Assembly (NCBI RefSeq): GCF_032163395.1
Contig: NZ_CP119968.1
Location: 5,110,001 to 5,174,000 of the forward strand
DNA: 64,000 nucleotides
Reading direction: 5' to 3'
Origin: Gloeocapsopsis dulcis
GTDB lineage: Bacteria; Cyanobacteriota; Cyanobacteriia; Cyanobacteriales; Chroococcidiopsidaceae
Below, in pieces: positions 17,193 through 37,674 of this stretch. Numbering within the stretch: position 1 is the stretch's first letter; every line of letters begins with the position of its first letter. Made by a program: the position numbers and the translations under genes. The notes below the pieces were generated by a model. That model did no database searches, had not been told where the DNA came from, and was given only the letters and a program-made list of their open reading frames with translations.

Positions 17193-18911
17193 GTGTCGGA
17201 AATTAGAATTGAAGCTGAAAATATGACCCTGACAGGCTTTCGCCAAGAAACGAATAGTGCTGCTTCAGGTCAAAACATCATTAGTTTAGTTAATGGTGGT
17301 GTAGCAGAAATGGGTTTTGCCTCGTTCAATTTTATAGGTGCTCCCGGCTTATACCAAGTAGTCGTAGGTTACTTTGATGAAAATGATGGTGTTAGCCAAT
17401 TTGAGGTTCGTCAAAAGGGCGCGATCGTAGATGCTTGGAGTGCTAACCAAAATCTCGGAAGTGGTTTAGCTAATAGGCAAACTAGAACACTGCGTACGAT
17501 TGCTACACAGTTAGCCATTAGTCAAGGCGATACATTTCAACTCAAAGCTATAGAAGATGCAGGAGAACCTGCCAGGATAGACTTCATGGAGTTTGTTCCT
17601 GTTACACCACCTGCTACATCAACAGTCATTAATGGTACAAGCGGGAATGACCGACTAGTAGGTGACTGGAGAAATAATACGCTCAACGGTTTTGCTGGTA
17701 ATGATATTCTTGAAGGTCGAGGAGGTAATAATACACTTAACGGTGGTAGTGGGATAGATACTGCTGACTACACCTACGCACCTAACGGTATCATTGCTAA
17801 TCTCAGAACTAGAACTGTGCTCAAACCTGTGTTTGGCACAACAACACCAAGAATCATGCCTTTGGGTGACTCGATTACAGCAGGACTACACAATGTCGAG
17901 CCAACTCCAGGTACGTATCGAATTCAGCTATGGAAAAATCTGCTTGCTGATAACTTAAGTGTAGATTTTGTCGGTTCGCAGTTTAATGGACCACCTAGTT
18001 TAGCAGATAAAAACCACGAAGGACGTGGTGGCTGGACAATCGATCAAATCGCTGGCTTAGTTGATCGGGGAATCATCAAGACTTATCAGCCACAGATAAT
18101 TTTATTGATGATTGGGACTAATGATGTACTCCGTGGTAATTCGCTGAACACGATAACTAGCGATTTGAGCAATCTGATTGATCGCATCAGTACAGATTCG
18201 AGTAACACGCGTATTTTTGTTTCTTCGATTGCGCCAATTGATCCTGCTTATAGGGGAACAACGAGAGCTAATGTAGCAAAAAGTTTCAATGCGTTGCTTC
18301 CTGATTTTGTCAGAGACAAAGTTGCACAAGGTAAACAAGTTACTTATGTCAATGCTGGAGGTAGTCTTAACCTCAATGACTTAGTACCAGACGGTATTCA
18401 TCCCAATGTTGCCGGATACAACAAGATAGGAGATGCATGGCACGACACACTTGTCAAGCATGACACATTGACAGGTATCGAAAATGTTATTGGTTCTAAC
18501 TTTGCCGATAAGTTAGTGGGAGATGCTGGTCACAATACACTCAGGGGTGGTCTTGGTAGAGACACGCTAACTGGTGGCGGTGGTCCAGATAATTTCTTTT
18601 ATAAAGAACCAAGAGAAGGTGGTGATTTCATAACCGATTTTGGTGCTGACGATCGCTTAACATTTTCTGCCACAGGATTTGGTGGTGGTTTGGTTCGTAG
18701 TGTCAAACTCAGCACAACAGCAGTAGATACGGGAGTGTTTGTGAATGGGACTAATCCCACCGCTGTAGGTAGTAGTGCCAACTTCTTATACAACACCAAC
18801 ACAGGCGTACTGCAATTTGATGCTGATGGAGTTGGACCAGGTTCGGCAACAACAATTGCAACCTTAGCTGGTGCGCCATCGTTGAGTGCTACTCAATTCT
18901 ATATTTCTTGA
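17193..18911 (+). CDS. RTX-type secreted SGNH/GDSL esterase
   Basis: The 572-residue protein has no signal peptide but carries calcium-binding RTX-like repeats, as in type I secreted proteins. The order is an N-terminal carbohydrate-binding-like domain (about 1-140, RIEAENMTLTGF), RTX repeats (about 148-192, GNDRLVG, GNDILEG) and an SGNH hydrolase (about 218-425). A second RTX block (about 430-470, ADKLVGD, RDTLTGG) and a serralysin-like tail follow. The catalytic Ser is S227 in GDSITAG; GTND is at 308-311 and the D400/H403 pair is in DGIHPN. It probably removes acetyl or other acyl groups from exported polysaccharide. GTG 17193 is the start. The SGNH part resembles that at 56063. Confidence 0.85.
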   Translation: MSEIRIEAENMTLTGFRQETNSAASGQNIISLVNGGVAEMGFASFNFIGAPGLYQVVVGYFDENDGVSQFEVRQKGAIVDAWSANQNLGSGLANRQTRTLRTIATQLAISQGDTFQLKAIEDAGEPARIDFMEFVPVTPPATSTVINGTSGNDRLVGDWRNNTLNGFAGNDILEGRGGNNTLNGGSGIDTADYTYAPNGIIANLRTRTVLKPVFGTTTPRIMPLGDSITAGLHNVEPTPGTYRIQLWKNLLADNLSVDFVGSQFNGPPSLADKNHEGRGGWTIDQIAGLVDRGIIKTYQPQIILLMIGTNDVLRGNSLNTITSDLSNLIDRISTDSSNTRIFVSSIAPIDPAYRGTTRANVAKSFNALLPDFVRDKVAQGKQVTYVNAGGSLNLNDLVPDGIHPNVAGYNKIGDAWHDTLVKHDTLTGIENVIGSNFADKLVGDAGHNTLRGGLGRDTLTGGGGPDNFFYKEPREGGDFITDFGADDRLTFSATGFGGGLVRSVKLSTTAVDTGVFVNGTNPTAVGSSANFLYNTNTGVLQFDADGVGPGSATTIATLAGAPSLSATQFYIS

Positions 18912-23784: not shown

Positions 23785-23806
23785 AAAACCTGTGAAGACA
23801 GGTTTT
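23785..23806 (+). terminator. Hairpin before kdsB
   Basis: AAAACCTGT (23785-23793) pairs with ACAGGTTTT (23798-23806) around a GAAG loop. The T content after it is modest, so termination may be partial. Confidence 0.5.
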
Positions 23807-23869
23807 ATCTGTTTAGCTACGGTTTCAACCGTTAAGCTTCCTACAACACCTACTATTTTCGGAGTCATT

Positions 23870-24622: not shown

Positions 24623-25369
24623 ATGGCTTCCTCAACTCAGCATGTTTGGACTCGTTTTTCCAACTCACACACAACTGACATCCAGACTATCGGCTCAAGC
24701 CTCTGGTCGCGCTTTTGGATGAAGTTTGCTTGGTTAGGCTATTTTGGGCGTTTTGCTACTCGCCTCGCGGCTTGGACTGCGCCACCATACAGACAACGCC
24801 GTCGTTTGGCTCGTTACCATCCCAAGGGCTACATCTCGCATAGTGCCAGTATTTATCATAATAATGTGCAACTGGGTACTAATATTTTCATTGGTGATCG
24901 CGTCACAATCTATCAGGACGATGGCACTGGTTCTGTAGAGGTAGGGAATCGCGTCCGCATCCATCAAGATGTTTGTATTGAGACTGGTGCTGGCGGTAGC
25001 ATCAAGATTGGAACAGATACAGGTATTCAACCTCGCTGTCAGTTCTCCGCCTATAAAGCACCAATTCGCATTGGTCACGGTGTGATGATTGCACCAAACT
25101 GTGCCTTTTATCCCTACGATCATGGCATTGCACCTAACGAACCGATCAAAAATCAGCCGTTACAAACAAAAGGGGGCATCACGATTGATGATGATGCTTG
25201 GCTAGGCTACGGAGTCATTGTTTTAGATGGGGTTCATATTGGTAAAGGAGCCGTGATTGGTGCGGGTGCTGTTGTGACTAAAGATGTTCCAGATGGTGCG
25301 ATCGCCGTTGGATCGCCTGCGCGTGTTATTAATATGCGCGGCAATCTCGTTAAAAACAATGTTGAATAA
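24623..25369 (+). CDS. Left-handed beta-helix (hexapeptide) acyltransferase
   Basis: The 248-residue protein has repeated hexapeptides (IFIGDRVTI, VEVGNRVRI, IKIGTDTGI, IGKGAVIGAGAVVTKDV) that form the beta-helix of Maa/CysE-type O-acetyltransferases. NCAFYPYDHGI carries the likely catalytic His. It is very similar over its whole length to the protein encoded at 40800-41546 (WTRFSN start, RRRLAR, GYI), so the two are paralogues. It probably acetylates a sugar in the repeat unit. It follows kdsB by 21 bp. Confidence 0.84.
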   Translation: MASSTQHVWTRFSNSHTTDIQTIGSSLWSRFWMKFAWLGYFGRFATRLAAWTAPPYRQRRRLARYHPKGYISHSASIYHNNVQLGTNIFIGDRVTIYQDDGTGSVEVGNRVRIHQDVCIETGAGGSIKIGTDTGIQPRCQFSAYKAPIRIGHGVMIAPNCAFYPYDHGIAPNEPIKNQPLQTKGGITIDDDAWLGYGVIVLDGVHIGKGAVIGAGAVVTKDVPDGAIAVGSPARVINMRGNLVKNNVE

Positions 25370-25434
25370 ACTTTAGATTACTCATCAGTAAGTGAGTGCA
25401 GCTCTGTACCATTGAACGGGCAAAACGTAAAGAG

Positions 25435-25897
25435 ATGAACAGTTTACTCACAATTGCTATCCCAACATTCAATCGCACACACTTATTAGATAAGCAGTTA
25501 GCCTGGCTAGCTAACTCTATTAGAGGCTTTGAATCTGACTGTGAAGTTATCATTTCAGATAACTGTTCGACCGATGAAACTAAAGAAGTTATTCAAAAGT
25601 GGCAACATGCTTTTGCTGCTACTCAACTTCGCATCAACCGCAATCGTGAAAATATTGGGGCAATAAAAAATATTGCTTACTGTATCAATAATGCGACTAG
25701 CAAATATGTTTGGACAATTAGCGATGACGATACAATTTATGCCAAAACTTTGGCTGACGTGCTACAAGTTTTGAGAGATAATGCAGACCTTTCTCTACTC
25801 ATATTGAATTTCTCTAACTTTAATATCAAAACAAATCAACAGCGATTTACACGTTGTTTTGATATCGAAAATGATGATGTCAATCCTAACGGAAAAG
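25435..25897 (+). pseudogene. GT2 glycosyltransferase, 5' part, interrupted by IS
   Basis: ATG 25435 (AAAGAG upstream) opens a normal GT2: LTIAIPTFNRTHLL, then ISDNCSTDET and WTISDDDT. After about 154 residues the frame runs into the left end of an IS1-type element at 25898 and stops within it. A sequence resembling the end of such an enzyme (YLDIPAVFWKLSRIGYSKKF) appears right after the second IS copy, at 30161. Joining the two gives only about 200 residues and is out of frame, so some 80-100 residues seem lost. The enzyme is very probably inactive. Confidence 0.82.
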
Positions 25898-25927
25898 GGT
25901 AGTCCTGAATCAGTAAGGATAGTAGAG

Positions 25928-26260
25928 ATGAATCACTCTACTTCAATCATGTTAGACACTGCTCTCACTTGCCCTCGCTGTGACTCTAATCAAGTTGTCA
26001 AAAATGGCAAAATTCATAACGGTAACCAGAACTTCAAATGTAAAAGCTGTGGCAGACAGTTTGTTCTAGACCCGAGAAACAAGATAATTGGGCAGGAGAC
26101 TAGAGACTTGATAGACAAACTACTGCTGGAGAAACTACCTCTGGCTGGAATTGCTAGAGTTACTGGTGTATCAGAAAGATGGTTACAGACGTATGTCAAC
26201 ACGTTATATACATCTGTCCTAAAAGACATAGAAGTTTGGCCTAAAAAAAGGGGCGACTAA
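25928..26260 (+). CDS. insA: IS1 InsA-like protein
   Basis: The 110-residue product has a CXXC...CXXC zinc finger (CPRCDSNQVVKNG, CKSCGRQFV) followed by a helix-turn-helix segment (LAGIARVTGVSERWLQ). These are standard InsA features, used to bind the terminal repeats and repress transposition. An A7 run near the end (26243-26249) is the place where a -1 shift would enter insB. As the downstream insB is cut off, this copy cannot make transposase. Confidence 0.9.
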   Translation: MNHSTSIMLDTALTCPRCDSNQVVKNGKIHNGNQNFKCKSCGRQFVLDPRNKIIGQETRDLIDKLLLEKLPLAGIARVTGVSERWLQTYVNTLYTSVLKDIEVWPKKRGD

Positions 26261-26277
26261 CTATCCAGTGTGATGAA

Positions 26278-26344
26278 ATGTGGTCATTTGTTGGCAGCAA
26301 GAAAAACAAGCAATGGATTTGGTTAGCGCTGGATACGAAAACAA
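26278..26344 (+). pseudogene. insB: insB 5' remnant
   Basis: MWSFVGSKKNKQWIWLALDT matches the start of InsB in the other copy. The reading then runs into unrelated sequence after 26344 and stops at 26409-26411, next to the start of the GMC gene. The catalytic Asp and Glu residues further on are lost. Confidence 0.8.
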
Positions 26345-26401
26345 TGTTGTTGCGGCAATTACCAATGCCGACGCCAACTGAGTTAAGAGGGGACTCGTTA
26401 C

Positions 26402-28060
26402 ATGTTAATTGATGCACGCACAATACCCACAGACGAGATTATTAAAACTGAAGTTTGCATTATCGGTGCTGGACCAGCAGGAATTACACTAGCACGTGAA
26501 TTTATAGGACAGAACTTTCGAGTTTGTCTGCTGGAGAGTGGACGAACCGAGCCGCCCGATGAAGACCTTCAGTCCCTATGCAAGGGCGAAATTATTGATG
26601 AGCTCTATCAAGATCTGAGCCTGTCGCTCTGTCGCCAGTTTGGTGGCGCCGCCAACTTCTGGCACAATAGCGTTAGGCTTTTGCCGCTGGACAAAATAGA
26701 TTTCGAAAAACGAGATGGGCTGCCATATAGTGGTTGGCCCTTTAGCAAGTCTCACCTCGATCCGTTTTACGAACGCGCCCAACATCTTTGTAGATTGAGA
26801 CCCTTTGCTTATGATGCTGAAGATTGGGAAGATGAGCAAACTCCTCGACTGCCCTTCGCTGGAAGCCGAATAGCCACTACCACGTATCAGTTCGCACCCC
26901 GTAAGATTTTCACCCACGAACTCCGTAGTGAAATCAGGCGGTCTGAAAATATTACCACCTACCTCAATGCCAACGTGGTGGAGATTGAAACTGATGATAT
27001 AGCTAAAACTGTAACTCGCGTCCGAGTAGCTTGTTTTCAGGGGAATGGATTTTGGGTTAAGGCAAAAGTATTTATTTTGGCTACGGGTGGTATTGAAAAT
27101 GCCCGGTTATTGCTGCTATCTAACAAGACTCAAAATGTTGGTCTAGGCAATCAACACGATTTGGTTGGCAGGTTTTTTATGGAACATCCAGTTGTTCGTC
27201 TGGGGATGTTTATTCCTTCAGAGCGACAGATTTTTAATTCAGCAGGTTTATACGATATCCGCTGGACGAACAACATACCGGTAATGGGAAAACTGTCTCT
27301 GACTAAAGAAGTAATGCGCCGTCAGCAGTTACTGAATAGTTATTTGCTCCTTGTTCCCAAATCTATCTACGAGTCACCAGCCATTAAGTCGCTTAAAGTC
27401 TTGCTGTCGTCAATCCGCCATGCAGAGGTACCAAAGGATTTGCTCAAACATTTGAACAGTGCAATTGGCGGCATTGACGAGATCGTGACACGCATCTACA
27501 GACGCGTTTCTAACGTGAAAGAATTTCCTTACGATCTCAGTCACGGTGGTTGGTCGCACTGCCAAGGTAATGAAAAGAGATTTAGAGCATTCCAGGTATG
27601 GTCTGCTACAGAGCAGCCACCTAATCCAGACATTCGAGTCATGCTTAGCGATGAACGCGATCGCCTTGGTTTAAGGAAAATCCAGCCGCTCCGCTGGCAT
27701 TGGAGCGACCTAGAAATCCATAGCCTCCAGCAGGTACAGGAAATTCTGAGAGAAGAGATTGAGCACGCTGGGCTAGGTCAGTTTCAATCATTGGTTGCGC
27801 TGGATCGACGTAAACCAAAGTGTGTCGGTGGAAGACATCATATGGGAACAACACGCATGCATATCGATCCGAAGCAGGGCGTTGTCGATGAAAACTGCCG
27901 AGTTCATGGAGTCTCCAATTTGTTCATTGCAGGTAGTTCTGTTTTTCCGACGGGAGGTGCCGCTAATCCCACTCTTACCATCATTGCGCTGGCAATTCGA
28001 CTGGCGGATCGCGTGAAAACAGTTATGATGGCATCAGATGCAGTAGCAATGTATAGATAG
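26402..28060 (+). CDS. GMC-family FAD oxidoreductase
   Basis: The 552-residue protein starts with an FAD-binding fold (EVCIIGAGPAGITLAREF). It ends with the GMC C-terminal signature GRHHMGTTRMHIDPKQGVVD, then NLFIAGSSVFPTGGAANPTL, which provides the His-Asn type active site. The gene at 36016-37674 encodes a paralogue of exactly the same length and order of motifs. AGAGGGG lies about eleven bases before ATG 26402, so the gene brought its own ribosome site. GMC enzymes oxidise alcohols such as sugars; here a sugar or a polyketide-like alcohol is possible. It is the only intact cargo gene of the IS-bounded segment. Confidence 0.86.
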   Translation: MLIDARTIPTDEIIKTEVCIIGAGPAGITLAREFIGQNFRVCLLESGRTEPPDEDLQSLCKGEIIDELYQDLSLSLCRQFGGAANFWHNSVRLLPLDKIDFEKRDGLPYSGWPFSKSHLDPFYERAQHLCRLRPFAYDAEDWEDEQTPRLPFAGSRIATTTYQFAPRKIFTHELRSEIRRSENITTYLNANVVEIETDDIAKTVTRVRVACFQGNGFWVKAKVFILATGGIENARLLLLSNKTQNVGLGNQHDLVGRFFMEHPVVRLGMFIPSERQIFNSAGLYDIRWTNNIPVMGKLSLTKEVMRRQQLLNSYLLLVPKSIYESPAIKSLKVLLSSIRHAEVPKDLLKHLNSAIGGIDEIVTRIYRRVSNVKEFPYDLSHGGWSHCQGNEKRFRAFQVWSATEQPPNPDIRVMLSDERDRLGLRKIQPLRWHWSDLEIHSLQQVQEILREEIEHAGLGQFQSLVALDRRKPKCVGGRHHMGTTRMHIDPKQGVVDENCRVHGVSNLFIAGSSVFPTGGAANPTLTIIALAIRLADRVKTVMMASDAVAMYR

Positions 28061-28093
28061 TAAGCCGTTGTACGTCTAACAAGGACTAAGCAT

Positions 28094-29326
28094 ATGAGAA
28101 TAGAAAACCTCAGGTCAGACAAAAACGGAAATTTGGCACGAGTTACAGCGACGGTAATTTGGGAAGATTGCGATCGCCCAACGCAAGAAATCTACTTTGA
28201 GACTACTGAAGCATTTGCCCAAGGCTTATCCTGCAACCCCCATACGTTTGTTTCTGCTTGCATAATGCCAGCCATGCACCATGGCGAATCAAGGATCTCT
28301 ATAAGATGTGCAGAAATCTGCCCGGAGTTGCGCAATGGGCTAATAACTGCAATGAGTTGGATTCGTCAGTGGTACGGGTCGGAGCGCAAGCTTGTACAAA
28401 TATGAGGCAAAAATACAGTCTCGTCCACCAATGCCGCCCGCACCGGAGAGGGCAGGTTCGTTTTTCTCAGGAGGCATAGATTCTCTTGCAGCTTTGCGTG
28501 CTAACCGCTTTGACTTTCCATTGGAACACCCTAGGTCAACTAAGGATGGCTTGCTCATATACGGGCTTGAAATGCAAGATCCGGAATTCTATTAAGCAGC
28601 TAGTGAATTCGCTGTCACACATAGCCCTAGACGCTGGTATAAATCTAATTCCTGTTTACACAAATATCAGAGATTTTTTAGGTCGGGATTGGTCTTTCTG
28701 GGGAACAGAGATTCAGGGAGCAGTTCTTGCTGGCGTTGCCCACGCGTTCTCGCGGAGGCTTACTACAGTTACCATACCCTCAAGCTTTGATATCGCTCAT
28801 TTATATCCGTTTGGTTCGCACTCTTTACTAGACCCAAACTACAGCAGTATTGCAAATTCAGCACGGCAGCATTTTGTTAACAAGGTTAGACAAAACCAAG
28901 TTAGTAGCTGATTGGGATGTGGCTCTGCAAAATCTTAAGGTGTGCAATAGAATCAGCCTTATAAAGTCTGATGCGCTTAACTGTGGTGAATGTGAGAAAT
29001 GTGTTCGAACGATGACCGCACTTTTAGCATTAGGGGTCTTGGATAAGACACGTGCTTTTCCCAAAGCTGATGTTTCAGAAGAGCTGCTACTGGAAAAAGC
29101 GTACATTAAAGATCCTCCCTATGCGGAGTCCTGTTATTGGGAATTGATGGCTCCTTTAGCAGCAAAAGGTCGTTATGACTTGGTACGCGGTATTGAGCGC
29201 CTGATAGAGCGGTATCATAAGGGAGGAAAGCTGAGGCAGAGGAAGGAAAAACTTAAGCAAGTTGAGCGCAAATTTTTCAAAGGTAACCTGTTTAAACTTT
29301 ATCAAGCAGTAGCTCGAAAAGGGTAA
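28094..29326 (+). pseudogene. PP-loop ATP pyrophosphatase (QueC/ExsB-like), three frameshifts
   Basis: Similarity to one protein of about 410 residues is spread over three frames. Residues 1-100 are in frame from 28094. A PP-loop, SGGIDSLAAL, is in the next frame (28392-28595). A middle part (RDFLGRDWSFWGTEIQGAVL) is in the third frame (to about 28895). The end, with a likely zinc site CGECEKCVRTM, is back in the first frame (to 29326). Each shift is in the same direction, near 28391, 28592 and 28893. PP-loop enzymes activate a carboxyl or amide group with ATP. The gene is decayed unless sequence errors explain the shifts. It follows the GMC gene by 33 bp. Confidence 0.75.
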
Positions 29327-29376
29327 GAACTTAGTTATAGTGTTTCGGTAGTCCTGAATCAGTAAGGATAGTAGAG

Positions 29377-29709
29377 ATGAATCACTCTACTTCAATCATG
29401 TTAGACACTGCTCTCACTTGCCCTCGCTGTGACTCTAATCAAGTTGTCAAAAATGGCAAAATTCATAACGGTAACCAGAACTTCAAATGTAAAAGCTGTG
29501 GCAGACAGTTTGTTCTAGACCCGAGAAACAAGATAATTGGGCAGGAGACTAGAGACTTGATAGACAAACTACTGCTGGAGAAACTACCTCTGGCTGGAAT
29601 TGCTAGAGTTACTGGTGTATCAGAAAGATGGTTACAGACGTATGTCAACACGTTATATACATCTGTCCTAAAAGACATAGAAGTTTGGCCTAAAAAAAGG
29701 GGCAACTAA
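29377..29709 (+). CDS. insA: IS1 InsA-like protein
   Basis: This is the same 110-residue zinc-finger and helix-turn-helix protein as in the truncated copy, differing in the last residue (Asn for Asp). Near its end an A7 run (29692-29698) followed by GG is a good -1 slippery site. Slipping there reads on as KGQLTIQCDEMW into insB, giving the InsAB' transposase. Confidence 0.92.
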   Translation: MNHSTSIMLDTALTCPRCDSNQVVKNGKIHNGNQNFKCKSCGRQFVLDPRNKIIGQETRDLIDKLLLEKLPLAGIARVTGVSERWLQTYVNTLYTSVLKDIEVWPKKRGN

Positions 29710-30120
29710 CTATCCAGTGTGATGAAATGTGGTCATTTGTTGGCAGCAAGAAAAACAAGCAATGGATTTGGTTAGCGCTGGATACGAAAACAAAAGAAAT
29801 CGTCGGTGTTTATGTTGGTGCGCGTAGCCGACAGGGAACCGAAGGATTATGGCAGTCTTTACCCTCAATTTACCGACAATGTGCAGTATGCTATACCGAC
29901 TTTTGGTCTGCTTATGAGGAGATTTTTTCCAAATCTAGGCATCAAGTTGTTAGGAAAAAAAGTGGTAAAACTAATCTGATTGAGCGATTTAACTGCACCT
30001 TACGTCAAAGAATTTCACGTAAGCGTCAGAAAAACCTTATCTTTCTCAAAAAAGTTAGATAACCACATTGGAGCTATCTGGTATTTCGTCCATCACTACA
30101 ATGAACTCTTGCGTATTTAG
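29700..30120 (+). pseudogene. insB: InsB transposase part, frameshifted near the C-terminus
   Basis: Read from the -1 shift, the frame gives QCDEMWSFVGSK (first catalytic Asp), CYTDFWSAY (second Asp) and NLIERFNCTLRQRISRKRQK (catalytic Glu). An extra A in the run at 30030-30034 then moves the frame, and it stops at 30062. In the other frame the normal end follows (LSFSKKLDNHIGAIWYFVHH...NELLRI, stop at 30118-30120). The DDE residues are kept but the C-terminus is lost, so activity is doubtful. Confidence 0.8.
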
Positions 30121-30160
30121 AGCTATCATTTACCTCTATCCTTACTTATTCAGGACTACC

Positions 30161-30418
30161 GATAACTAAAGAGACTTATTTGCAATGTAATACTGGTACT
30201 AACTTTTGGAAAGAAAATTCTAAGTTAGCTTTTCAGTTACGTTACCTAGATATACCTGCAGTTTTCTGGAAATTGTCGCGTATAGGATACTCTAAAAAAT
30301 TTGTCTAAGTATGATTTATTCTCAATACGAAAGAATGATTCTTGAGCATTTTCACATGAGATCTTTCTTGAGAGGATTAAAAAGAGGAATTAGAAGTCGT
30401 TTATTGAAAATTCAGTAG
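30161..30418 (+). pseudogene. GT2 glycosyltransferase, 3' part, after IS
   Basis: From 30162 a frame reads ITKETYLQCNTGTNFWKEN and on to YLDIPAVFWKLSRIGYSKKF, a typical tail of GT2 enzymes, then stops at TAA. A further 35 codons in another frame from 30311 (MIYSQYERMILEHF... ending RSRLLKIQ) look like the remaining C-terminus after a frameshift. It is taken as the remainder of the gene begun at 25435. The match is judged by eye only. Confidence 0.55.
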
Positions 30419-30427
30419 TTAACATCA

Positions 30428-30565
30428 ACAAGAATGTTGGGCGAATAAATTCGCGCCTAAATAGAAAAAGTCCACCTTTGTGGACTGAATCATCAAAATC
30501 TTAATCAGAGTGTGCGCTCGTCACACTTTGTTTGGGTAGCCCCGACTTCAGTCGTAGGACATTTT
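30428..30565. repeat. MITE-like palindromic repeat, copy 2
   Basis: The left arm has GCGAATAAATTCGCGCC and AGTCCACCTTTGTGGACT. The right arm has CACACTTTGTTTGGGTAG and CCCCGACTTCAGTCG. Arms are inverted relative to each other as in the copy at 22503-22651. The right arm ends about 40 bases before the next gene. Confidence 0.6.
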
Positions 30566-30598
30566 TCCATAATTCACGATCACAAGTGTAGTTTAACA

Positions 30599-31690
30599 AT
30601 GCTGCTAACTCAAAATGTCATTGATAACTCTGGTACTGAAGCATTACCACCAATTTATTTTTATATTGCCCAAGAGCATTGGCCGGAAAACTTTTTGCCT
30701 GACAATATTGATCTACAGTGGATTGATCAGAACTGGCAACTTTTTAATCCAGGGATATTTGCTTGTGCGTTGCAAACTTATCTACGCTTAAAAGCAGATG
30801 GATTTCCTTGTCAACTCACTGGCAGGATGCCAACTGAAGGCATTGTTATTGCATATCACAAATCTGTTTTTTGGCAGAAGTGGAAACCTGATTCTAAAGT
30901 TATGTTGGTGTGTATTGTTGCTGATCGATCGCGGCGACACCACTGGGCACATTTTCATGTTGTCCTCAATCCTCAAGAATTACTTTCTCAGGACGGTTAC
31001 TCAATCAACAACAGCTACTACATCCCTCATTGGGCACCCCAACCAGGTTTAATTCCTCGCGATCCCGCCCGTGGCGATCGCTTTGAAAATATTACTTTCT
31101 TTGGTCGCGAACAAAATTTAGCACCTGAACTAAAACACCCGTCTTGGTGTGAACAATTGCAGACTTTGGGTTTACGTTGGCAAATCGCAGGAGAGGAATC
31201 TTGGAACGACTATAGCGCTGTTGATGCCGTTATTGCTGTACGCAGCTTTGATAACAAAGACCATGCGGTAAGACCTGCCTTAAAGCTATACAATGCTTGG
31301 CATGCTGGTGTACCAGCAATTCTCGGTCGTGAGTCTGCTTTTCAAGCAGAGCGGAGAAACGAGTTAGACTACTTAGAGGCAACTTCACCAAATCAGGTCC
31401 TAGCTATGCTGCAGCGACTCCGAGATGACGTAGAATTTCGTCGTGCTATGGTCAATAATGGTCGCTTACGGGCTAGAGAAACGCAACATTATATCCTTTT
31501 GAATAGCTGGCGTTGCTTTCTAATGGGTACAGTGGTTCCAGCTTATAAACATTGGTGTGATGCTCCATCTTTAGTACAACAAGCATTTCAGGTTAAAGGT
31601 AGGCTTGCTGATTCTTTAGAGCGCGTTACACGCCGCATGCCAAAACTAAAATTCACACAGTCTTCAACTAAAATTTTGACAAAAGTATGA
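30599..31690 (+). CDS. Probable GT-B glycosyltransferase
   Basis: I start at ATG 30599 (MLLTQNVIDN), since the upstream open frame is inside the repeat. The 363-residue protein has IYFYIAQEHWPENFL near the start. Its C-terminal half (VDAVIAVRSFDNKDHAVRPALKLYNAWHAGVPAILG, then a Glu-rich stretch and RLRDDVEFRRAMVNNG) resembles the donor-binding half of GT-B glycosyltransferases. No exact family can be named. It is placed directly after the IS-bounded segment and before a GT4 gene, and probably belongs to the same assembly pathway. Confidence 0.68.
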   Translation: MLLTQNVIDNSGTEALPPIYFYIAQEHWPENFLPDNIDLQWIDQNWQLFNPGIFACALQTYLRLKADGFPCQLTGRMPTEGIVIAYHKSVFWQKWKPDSKVMLVCIVADRSRRHHWAHFHVVLNPQELLSQDGYSINNSYYIPHWAPQPGLIPRDPARGDRFENITFFGREQNLAPELKHPSWCEQLQTLGLRWQIAGEESWNDYSAVDAVIAVRSFDNKDHAVRPALKLYNAWHAGVPAILGRESAFQAERRNELDYLEATSPNQVLAMLQRLRDDVEFRRAMVNNGRLRARETQHYILLNSWRCFLMGTVVPAYKHWCDAPSLVQQAFQVKGRLADSLERVTRRMPKLKFTQSSTKILTKV

Positions 31691-35900: not shown

Positions 35901-36015
35901 GAAGATTTTGTATTGAGTAGTTAATTGAGATTGAAATGCGAATTAATCGCATCAAATAAAAAGTGTTGCGGTAGTTTCAATCAAACTTGGCAATTATTAT
36001 TAAGCAAGAATTATC

Positions 36016-37674
36016 ATGATCATTGATGCATTATCAATACCAGAAAATACAATCATCGAAAAAGACATTTGTATAGTTGGTGGAGGGGCTGCAGGAATTA
36101 CAATTGCACGAGAACTACGTAACCAACCTTATGAAGTCTGCATTTTAGAAAGTGGTGGATTCGATTTCGAGCAAGCTACACAGTCGCTATATGATGGTGC
36201 GAACGCTGGTATTTCATATTTTCCTCTAGGTGAGGCACGGGCGCGATATCTTGGTGGTTCGACTAACTTGTGGGGTGGGTGGAGTCGTCCATTTGATGAG
36301 GTTGATTTTGAAAAACGTTCGTGGGTGCCTTATAGTGGCTGGCCTGTGACTAGATCTGAGCTATTGCCATACTACCACCGCGCCCAGCAAGCTTGTCATC
36401 TGGGACCTTATGCTTACGATGTATCATCCTGGGAAGAAACTTTAAAACAACTGCAATGCGATCGCCTACCTTTGAACGAAGCCCAAGTCGAAACTTGTAT
36501 TTGGCAAGTGATCCCACCGACGCACCTGCGCTTTGGCGAAGCATACCGAACCGAACTCGAACAAGCAAAAAATGTTTCTACTTATCTCCACGCCAATGTC
36601 CTAGAAATCGAAACGAATGATACTGCACAAGCTGTAACTCGACTCCAAGTTGCAAGTCTTGATGGTAAAAAGTTCTGGGTGAAAGCTAAAGTCTTTATTC
36701 TAGCTGTTGGTGGAATTGAAAATCCCCGCTTGCTGTTACTAGCAAACAAAGTTCAAAGGTGTGGATTAGGCAATCAACATGACCTAGTTGGTAGATTCTT
36801 CATGGAACACCCTTTACTTAAATCAGGTAAAGTGCAGTTTTCTCAGCCAGCTGGTTTATATACTCAGAAAGTTATTCAAGCTGGCGAGTTATATATGGGT
36901 GCAGGGTTTAACCTTCCCCAAGCAGTTCAAGAACGCGAACAATTACTCAACTTCAGTACAAGGCTGTTACCTGTAAGGGATGAGGGGCTAGAAGCTTTTC
37001 AACGACTGAGACATCGAATTCCGCAAACGAAAACACCCGAAGCTTTCCCTAAAATTGTGCAAGGTCATCGCTATCGCAATAACACTTCGATTGTGAATGA
37101 CCTAGGTAAAGTCGTGACACATCTTGATAGTGTTGTTGCAAAAATTTATACCAAATTACTTAAATCCAATGCTGTGCAGCAACCTCAAGGTTACAACACG
37201 CTGATGATTGGCGAACAAGCCCCTAACCCAGATAGCCGAGTGACATTAAGTCCAGAACGTGACAAATTAGGACTCAATCGTGTCAAACTCGACTGGCGCT
37301 TAAATTCACTTGATAAGTATACAATGTTGCGATCGCAGCAACTTGTTGCACAAGAACTAGAGCGTTCTGGAGTTGGTCAACTGCAAATTGAGCTTACTAA
37401 TGACGACGCCTCATGGCAATCACTCACTAGTTCATATCACCATATGGGGACAACTCGGATGAGTAGCAGTCCCAAACAAGGTGTCGTTGACGAAAACTGT
37501 CGTATTCATGGAATGGGCAATTTGTACGTAGCTGGTAGTTCTGTTTTCCCGACAGGGGGACACTCAAACCCAACACTGACAATTGTCGCTTTATCAATTC
37601 GCTTGGCTGATCGTGTGAAAGCACAGATGAGTTCTGCTAATGCAATCGGTGCAATGGTTGGTAGCGGTCTGTAA
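36016..37674 (+). CDS. GMC-family FAD oxidoreductase
   Basis: The 552-residue protein has an N-terminal FAD motif (DICIVGGGAAGITIAREL), GGSTNLWGGWSRPFDEVDFE, and the C-terminal YHHMGTTRMSSSPKQGVVDE then NLYVAGSSVFPTGGHSNPTL. It is the full-length paralogue of the enzyme at 26402-28060. The C-terminal GGHSNP (GGAANP in the other) places His and Asn as in the GMC active site. It probably oxidises a sugar hydroxyl. A 115-bp gap before it holds no gene. Confidence 0.87.
   Translation: MIIDALSIPENTIIEKDICIVGGGAAGITIARELRNQPYEVCILESGGFDFEQATQSLYDGANAGISYFPLGEARARYLGGSTNLWGGWSRPFDEVDFEKRSWVPYSGWPVTRSELLPYYHRAQQACHLGPYAYDVSSWEETLKQLQCDRLPLNEAQVETCIWQVIPPTHLRFGEAYRTELEQAKNVSTYLHANVLEIETNDTAQAVTRLQVASLDGKKFWVKAKVFILAVGGIENPRLLLLANKVQRCGLGNQHDLVGRFFMEHPLLKSGKVQFSQPAGLYTQKVIQAGELYMGAGFNLPQAVQEREQLLNFSTRLLPVRDEGLEAFQRLRHRIPQTKTPEAFPKIVQGHRYRNNTSIVNDLGKVVTHLDSVVAKIYTKLLKSNAVQQPQGYNTLMIGEQAPNPDSRVTLSPERDKLGLNRVKLDWRLNSLDKYTMLRSQQLVAQELERSGVGQLQIELTNDDASWQSLTSSYHHMGTTRMSSSPKQGVVDENCRIHGMGNLYVAGSSVFPTGGHSNPTLTIVALSIRLADRVKAQMSSANAIGAMVGSGL

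Follow-up and report, generated by a model that had tools for sequence, protein, structure and literature searches.

IS1-bounded cargo in a split glycosyltransferase gene of a Gloeocapsopsis dulcis polysaccharide cluster

Layout of the locus and its cargo genes

We analysed a stretch of 64,000 nucleotides from Gloeocapsopsis dulcis, hereafter the window (G000:C1:5110001-5174000; positions below are those within the window), which lies on a 5.3-Mb contig of a 5.6-Mb genome assembled in 3 contigs. The surroundings of the locus form a Kdo-type polysaccharide cluster with KpsF/KdsD at 21.5 kb, KdsB at 23.9 kb, KdsA at 33.3 kb and KdsC at 34.1 kb, in addition to glycosyltransferases and a hexapeptide-repeat protein. 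The features of the locus itself all lie on the + strand. The 5' part of a GT2 glycosyltransferase gene (25435-25897; PF00535, E=6e-19) is followed at 25898-30160 by a segment of the order IS1(1-447)/cargo/IS1(1-814), with the IS copies in direct orientation, and then by the 3' remnant of the GT2 gene. This remnant, itself frameshifted, begins at 30161 and runs to approximately 30421 in the alignment to an intact gene of a relative (locus L059). Two short dispersed repeats lie nearby. One of about 120 bp, directly after the GT2 remnant (30441-30562), occurs in many copies, mostly 73-84% identical, in the same genome and its relatives. The other comprises the first 40 bases before kdsB (23792-23831) and recurs at several places in another genome (G001) with 82-95% identity.

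The cargo starts with a leader (26345-26401) abutting the truncated left IS copy, followed by an intact gene for a GMC-family FAD oxidoreductase of 552 residues (26402-28060). The protein matches PF05199 (E=9e-21) and has Rossmann-fold FAD matches over residues 15-50. Sequence comparison with solved structures places it closest to glucose and fructose dehydrogenases and pyranose oxidases, and the product is likely to be sugar-oxidase-like. The GC content of the gene is 46.7%, compared with 41.3% for the window. The second cargo gene (28094-29326), predicted originally to be a decayed PP-loop gene, does contain several frameshifts. A tblastn search with an intact 409-residue protein from another genome of the family (G010) scatters over four segments in different frames, from 28094 to about 29320. 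PP-loop ATP pyrophosphatases carry the motif SGGxDS. SGG.D is present and invariant among five aligned homologues, but the intact G010 protein matches nothing by sequence in Pfam, NCBIfam or the PDB; the PP-loop label is therefore motif-based only.

The GMC and PP-loop genes also occur as a pair in G010 with 71% DNA identity. There the intact pair occupies another position in a cluster of this type, with homologues of window positions 18907 and 18935 on either side, and is not IS-bounded within the stretch examined. Other relatives of the GMC gene are found near cluster genes in two further genomes (G003 and G008), and the closest named protein relative among 16 loci, 75% identical, is encoded on a Xenococcaceae MAG contig. 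The cargo is thus of a sort common in cyanobacterial polysaccharide clusters and nothing exotic. The leader is matched over its whole length only in the congeneric genome G002 among the 19 family genomes searched; the match in G008 starts at 26388. We also considered plasmids as carriers, and no source was found: the best 8 listed of 416 plasmid GMC relatives are 37-39% identical, and two of the 416 records reach 60-80% identity at their best place.

Defective IS1 copies and a trimmed target gene

Copy 2 (29347-30160) is a full-length element of 814 bp with terminal inverted repeats of 27 nt (96% identity). It can be assigned to the IS1 family by the InsA zinc ribbon and DDE_Tnp_IS1 domains (PF03811 and PF03400), and the InsB part exceeds the cut-off of the NCBIfam model transpos_IS1 (NF033558), whereas the InsA part alone stays below it. 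In the IS1 family, a -1 frameshift at an A-rich run fuses insA to insB. Copy 2 contains an A7G run, from which the -1 frame would lead straight into InsB, and insB carries a disrupting frameshift close to its 3' end. Copy 1 (25898-26344) comprises only IS positions 1-447, of which 446 are identical to copy 2. Since one copy is truncated and the other frameshifted, neither encodes an intact transposase. The two near-identical direct copies, and the break in one of them after 26344, were thus correctly recognised in the original prediction. The IS ends are exact at the left outer, the right outer and the inner end of copy 2, and the inner end of copy 1 is the cut at IS position 447 (26344/26345).

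Searching the whole genome for the IS, as had been proposed, returned no other near-identical copy: the two copies are the sole such pair, and apart from matches of at most 35 bases the next best is at most 84% identical. A half IS1 at G000:C1:5066815-5067182 (L005) covers IS positions 447-814 and starts at 447/448, where copy 1 stops. It is not the missing half of copy 1, being 84% identical to copy 2 and a near match to another subgroup (L003), and the shared breakpoint is either a coincidence or a breakage-prone spot. Plasmid relatives of the IS are 60-80% identical in all 16 records, one of them on NC_019746.1 from Gloeocapsa sp. PCC 7428 (Chroococcidiopsidaceae according to NCBI). An IS match in the family genome G014 agrees with this plasmid record in coordinates and identity, so that G014 may correspond to that strain. 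In G010, exactly 55 bases of an IS1 end occur with 91-95% identity on nine contigs (C2, C4, C12, C19, C23, C29, C30, C33 and C34), several of them at contig base 1, which suggests a multi-copy relative of the window IS that collapsed in the assembly.

The outer flanks, as predicted, are parts of one GT2 gene. The comparison with relatives that had been suggested revealed both the intact gene and an empty site in a genome of another genus of the family (G004), where a GT2 of 298 residues lies at the syntenic position (L059:5072-5965) with 82% amino acid identity to the 5' part in the window. Window position 25897 pairs with L059 position 5534 and 30163 with 5712. GT2 has therefore lost about 175 bp, and its two parts cannot be joined into one reading frame, confirming the deletion that had been postulated from the frames. 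The end of the G004 gene matches the right flank. That flank had been assigned to GT2 with an end at 30308; the assignment holds, but the end does not, 30308 being only a premature stop after a one-base loss in the remnant that continues to about 30421.

Loss of GT2 is not peculiar to the window genome. When the GT2 start was compared with 40 relatives, 37 gave some GT2-like match, and G004 alone has an intact orthologue at the syntenic place. A deletion in G014 joins window positions 25637 and 30620, one in G001 joins about 24685 to 31460, and G002 retains just the GT2 start and the last bases; as these deletions differ, GT2 was lost repeatedly. The GT2 relatives in G008 (50-53% identity) reside at other places. 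We found no second GT2 in the window genome to cover for the loss, the best other match (E=5.6e-9, 34% identity) being a generic GT2. The loss may have altered the sugar structure, a change that the original prediction had called probable.

The absence of a target duplication, also noted originally, is evident from the 8-bp flanks, which read CGGAAAAG to the left of copy 1, GATAACTA to the right of copy 2 and AGTGTTTC to the left of copy 2. A duplication of 8-9 bp is a mark of insertion and is not required for membership in the IS1 family. We surveyed 10 loci, including copy 2 of the window; two gave no ends, and of the seven sister copies with both ends found, five have duplications of 8-9 bp. 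The missing GT2 DNA is flush with the IS end, and an IS-adjacent deletion would account for the lack of a duplication. The element therefore resembles the IS1 family in its insA/insB organisation, the A7G run before the -1 frame, the InsA zinc ribbon, DDE_Tnp_IS1, the terminal inverted repeats and, in the sister copies, the 8-9 bp duplications; it differs in that both window copies are defective, by truncation or frameshift, and lack target duplications.

An eroded sister allele and the age of the cargo

At the same place in the congeneric genome G002, the GT2 start is followed by IS positions 377-447, the leader, the GMC gene and the start of the PP-loop gene, then by a 32-base scrap from the middle of the PP-loop gene and the last GT2 bases; the second IS is absent. 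The scrap indicates that the PP-loop gene was formerly present in G002 and disappeared along with anything at the site of copy 2. In both genomes, IS position 447 joins the leader in the same way, the first leader base being different. Hence, the cargo of this relative is not free of IS sequence: 71 bp of IS are retained at the identical junction. Six of these 71 bases differ from the window, a proportion above the cargo divergence; four of the six fall within five bases, and the sister copies suggest that the changes lie on the G002 side. At the GT2/IS junction of G002 (L060), a 10-base GT2 stretch (CAGATAACTG in the window) is present as its reverse complement. That the segment is an assembly artefact, or that the IS copies are neighbours by chance, has a practically negligible probability, as the window lies inside the 5.3-Mb contig of a 3-contig assembly and the same left junction recurs in the independent assembly of G002; we found nothing in favour of either.

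The original prediction that the cargo was brought in agrees with its absence at the syntenic position in G004 and G014 and with its divergence from G002, which is far below that of the surroundings. Between the window and G002, the cargo (26402-28184) is 1.74% divergent, compared with at least 7.7% for equally long flank stretches and a mean of 11.9% in 200-bp flank windows, with pieces below 80% identity or shorter than 60 bases excluded. The GMC gene has a dS of 0.043 (16/384 sites) and a dN of 0.012, whereas the dS of 29 background ORFs, all from this one cluster region, ranges from 0.222 to 1.854. These are the 31 window ORFs of at least 150 residues that passed with at least 60% identity and at least 100 aligned residues, minus the GMC gene and an antisense ORF within it (dS 0.017). 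The common ancestor of the two cargo copies would accordingly be about one-tenth as old as that of their neighbours, and the lower divergence implies that the allele was exchanged between the lineages, or acquired by them, after their split. Codon constraint does not account for the low divergence, as differences are similarly few in the leader (3 of 57 bases) and at the dead start of the PP-loop gene (1 of 91). The synonymous rate of the GMC gene exceeds the non-synonymous rate (Fisher test, p=0.0005, with a non-synonymous count of 15/1272 back-derived from the dN of 0.012). It is the sole cargo gene that is intact and constrained, in both the window and G002.

An ancient insertion shared since before the split, combined with slow evolution of the cargo, would conform to the identical site and junction in both species. 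We regard it as very unlikely, given that the dS of the cargo is about one-tenth of that of its neighbours and that its non-coding and pseudogene parts have diverged just as little. The aligned 200 bp beside the insert are 5.0% divergent on the left (2.7th percentile) and 6.0% on the right (7.5th percentile), a faint sign that homologous recombination carried some flanking DNA along with the insert.

The similarity of the two IS copies invites a different date. Polarising the cargo differences (n=31) placed the ancestral base in the window for 15 and in G002 for 13, with 3 ambiguous. If the IS copies were older than the split, about 19 differences over 447 positions would be expected by arithmetic from the dS of 0.043, and one is observed. 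To explain this, either the direct repeats, which lie 3.4 kb apart, must have undergone gene conversion or copy 2 must be younger, and homogenisation by conversion may have kept the copies alike. A recent IS duplication is ruled out as the date of the event: the IS/cargo junction is common to G002 and hence older, so the near-identity of the copies carries no date. More generally, flanking IS copies that are nearly identical can be a misleading clock when the junction is older than the similarity of the copies suggests.

Possible routes of assembly and exchange

The history that we favour, with a probability of roughly 70%, is that an IS1-bounded cargo came to lie in GT2 with an adjacent deletion, later passed between lineages and decayed differently in each. 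The GMC and PP-loop-like genes, both of the cyanobacterial polysaccharide-cluster type, would have been joined to an IS1 element, and the segment would have settled inside the GT2 gene of the Kdo-type cluster, presumably by IS1 transposase activity. An IS-adjacent deletion would have taken about 175 bp of GT2 and the target duplication. The arrangement may then have moved between the sister lineages after their divergence, in either direction and most simply through recombination between homologous flanking sequences. Decay would have followed, breaking the PP-loop gene and the IS transposase in the window and deleting most of the PP-loop gene, nearly all of GT2 and anything at the site of copy 2 in G002. 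Several points count against this history: homologous recombination has left a weak signature in the flanks, the IS scrap of G002 (6/71) is more diverged than the cargo, a former copy 2 in G002 is hypothetical, and a search of 19 family genomes yielded no donor locus in which the cargo adjoins an intact IS.

Two routes could have produced the joined structure. A molecule with IS(1-447) and the cargo may have entered by a single crossover into an intact IS1 already residing in GT2. Such a crossover yields IS(1-447)/cargo/IS(1-814) directly, with only the left copy truncated, as observed, and with the cargo ending on the right exactly where the inverted repeat of copy 2 begins. Translocatable units and pseudo-compound transposons have been described for IS6/IS26 elements (PMC7986276), and the window resembles them in carrying cargo between direct IS copies, much like the product of a single crossover between an IS-bearing unit and a resident IS. 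It is unlike them in its IS1 elements, its truncated left copy and its cargo of polysaccharide instead of resistance genes; the term and the evidence, as given in that source, pertain to the IS6 family and not to IS1. Searches of the genome and its relatives found no circle, donor or IS-only intermediate, and insertion of a composite with an internal deletion in copy 1 would give the same structure. We rate this crossover a little below an even chance. The other route, tentative to the same degree, is that IS1-cargo-IS1 transposed into GT2 as a unit and that an outer adjacent and an inner deletion trimmed GT2 and copy 1. Two direct IS copies do bound the cargo with precise outer ends, the left one truncated, sister copies have 8-9 bp duplications, and for other IS families it is documented (PMC11708052) that duplications can be lost when adjacent DNA is deleted. 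This transposition needs two extra deletions, and the duplication expected at the outer ends of a composite is missing, CGGAAAAG facing GATAACTA across the lost 175 bp or so of target. No second composite was found in the own genome with the IS as query or in 19 family genomes with the cargo as query, and no further near-identical IS in the own genome marks a second site for movement as a unit. It is conceivable, though improbable, that IS1 in GT2 served as a re-usable homology port: polysaccharide cargo tagged with an IS would have recombined with the resident copy and so reached one position in two or more species after these had separated, an IS1 counterpart, in cyanobacterial surface-sugar clusters, of IS26-like targeted integration.

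The locus is of a kind already known, an IS-bounded and mosaic polysaccharide cluster, and represents no new type of element. Gene clusters for polysaccharides of the O-antigen type are mosaic and remodelled by IS elements. The present locus is like them in the inactivation of a glycosyltransferase, the exchange of cargo between species and the recurrent deletions at one spot, and unlike them in that the cluster is cyanobacterial and of the Kdo type. New here are the eroded version of the segment in a congeneric genome, the empty site and the age test. We recognised no published IS1-bounded cargo in a cyanobacterial polysaccharide cluster, which is no proof of its absence from print. An otherwise ordinary instance of surface-sugar cluster reshuffling thereby becomes a well-resolved example of IS elements and inter-species recombination jointly re-editing such a cluster in cyanobacteria. 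A second GMC gene in the cluster (36004-37650) gives the opposite mosaic signal, the G002 allele being far more diverged: its dS of 1.85 to G002, compared with 0.62 to G004, indicates a replaced allele in one of the sister species.
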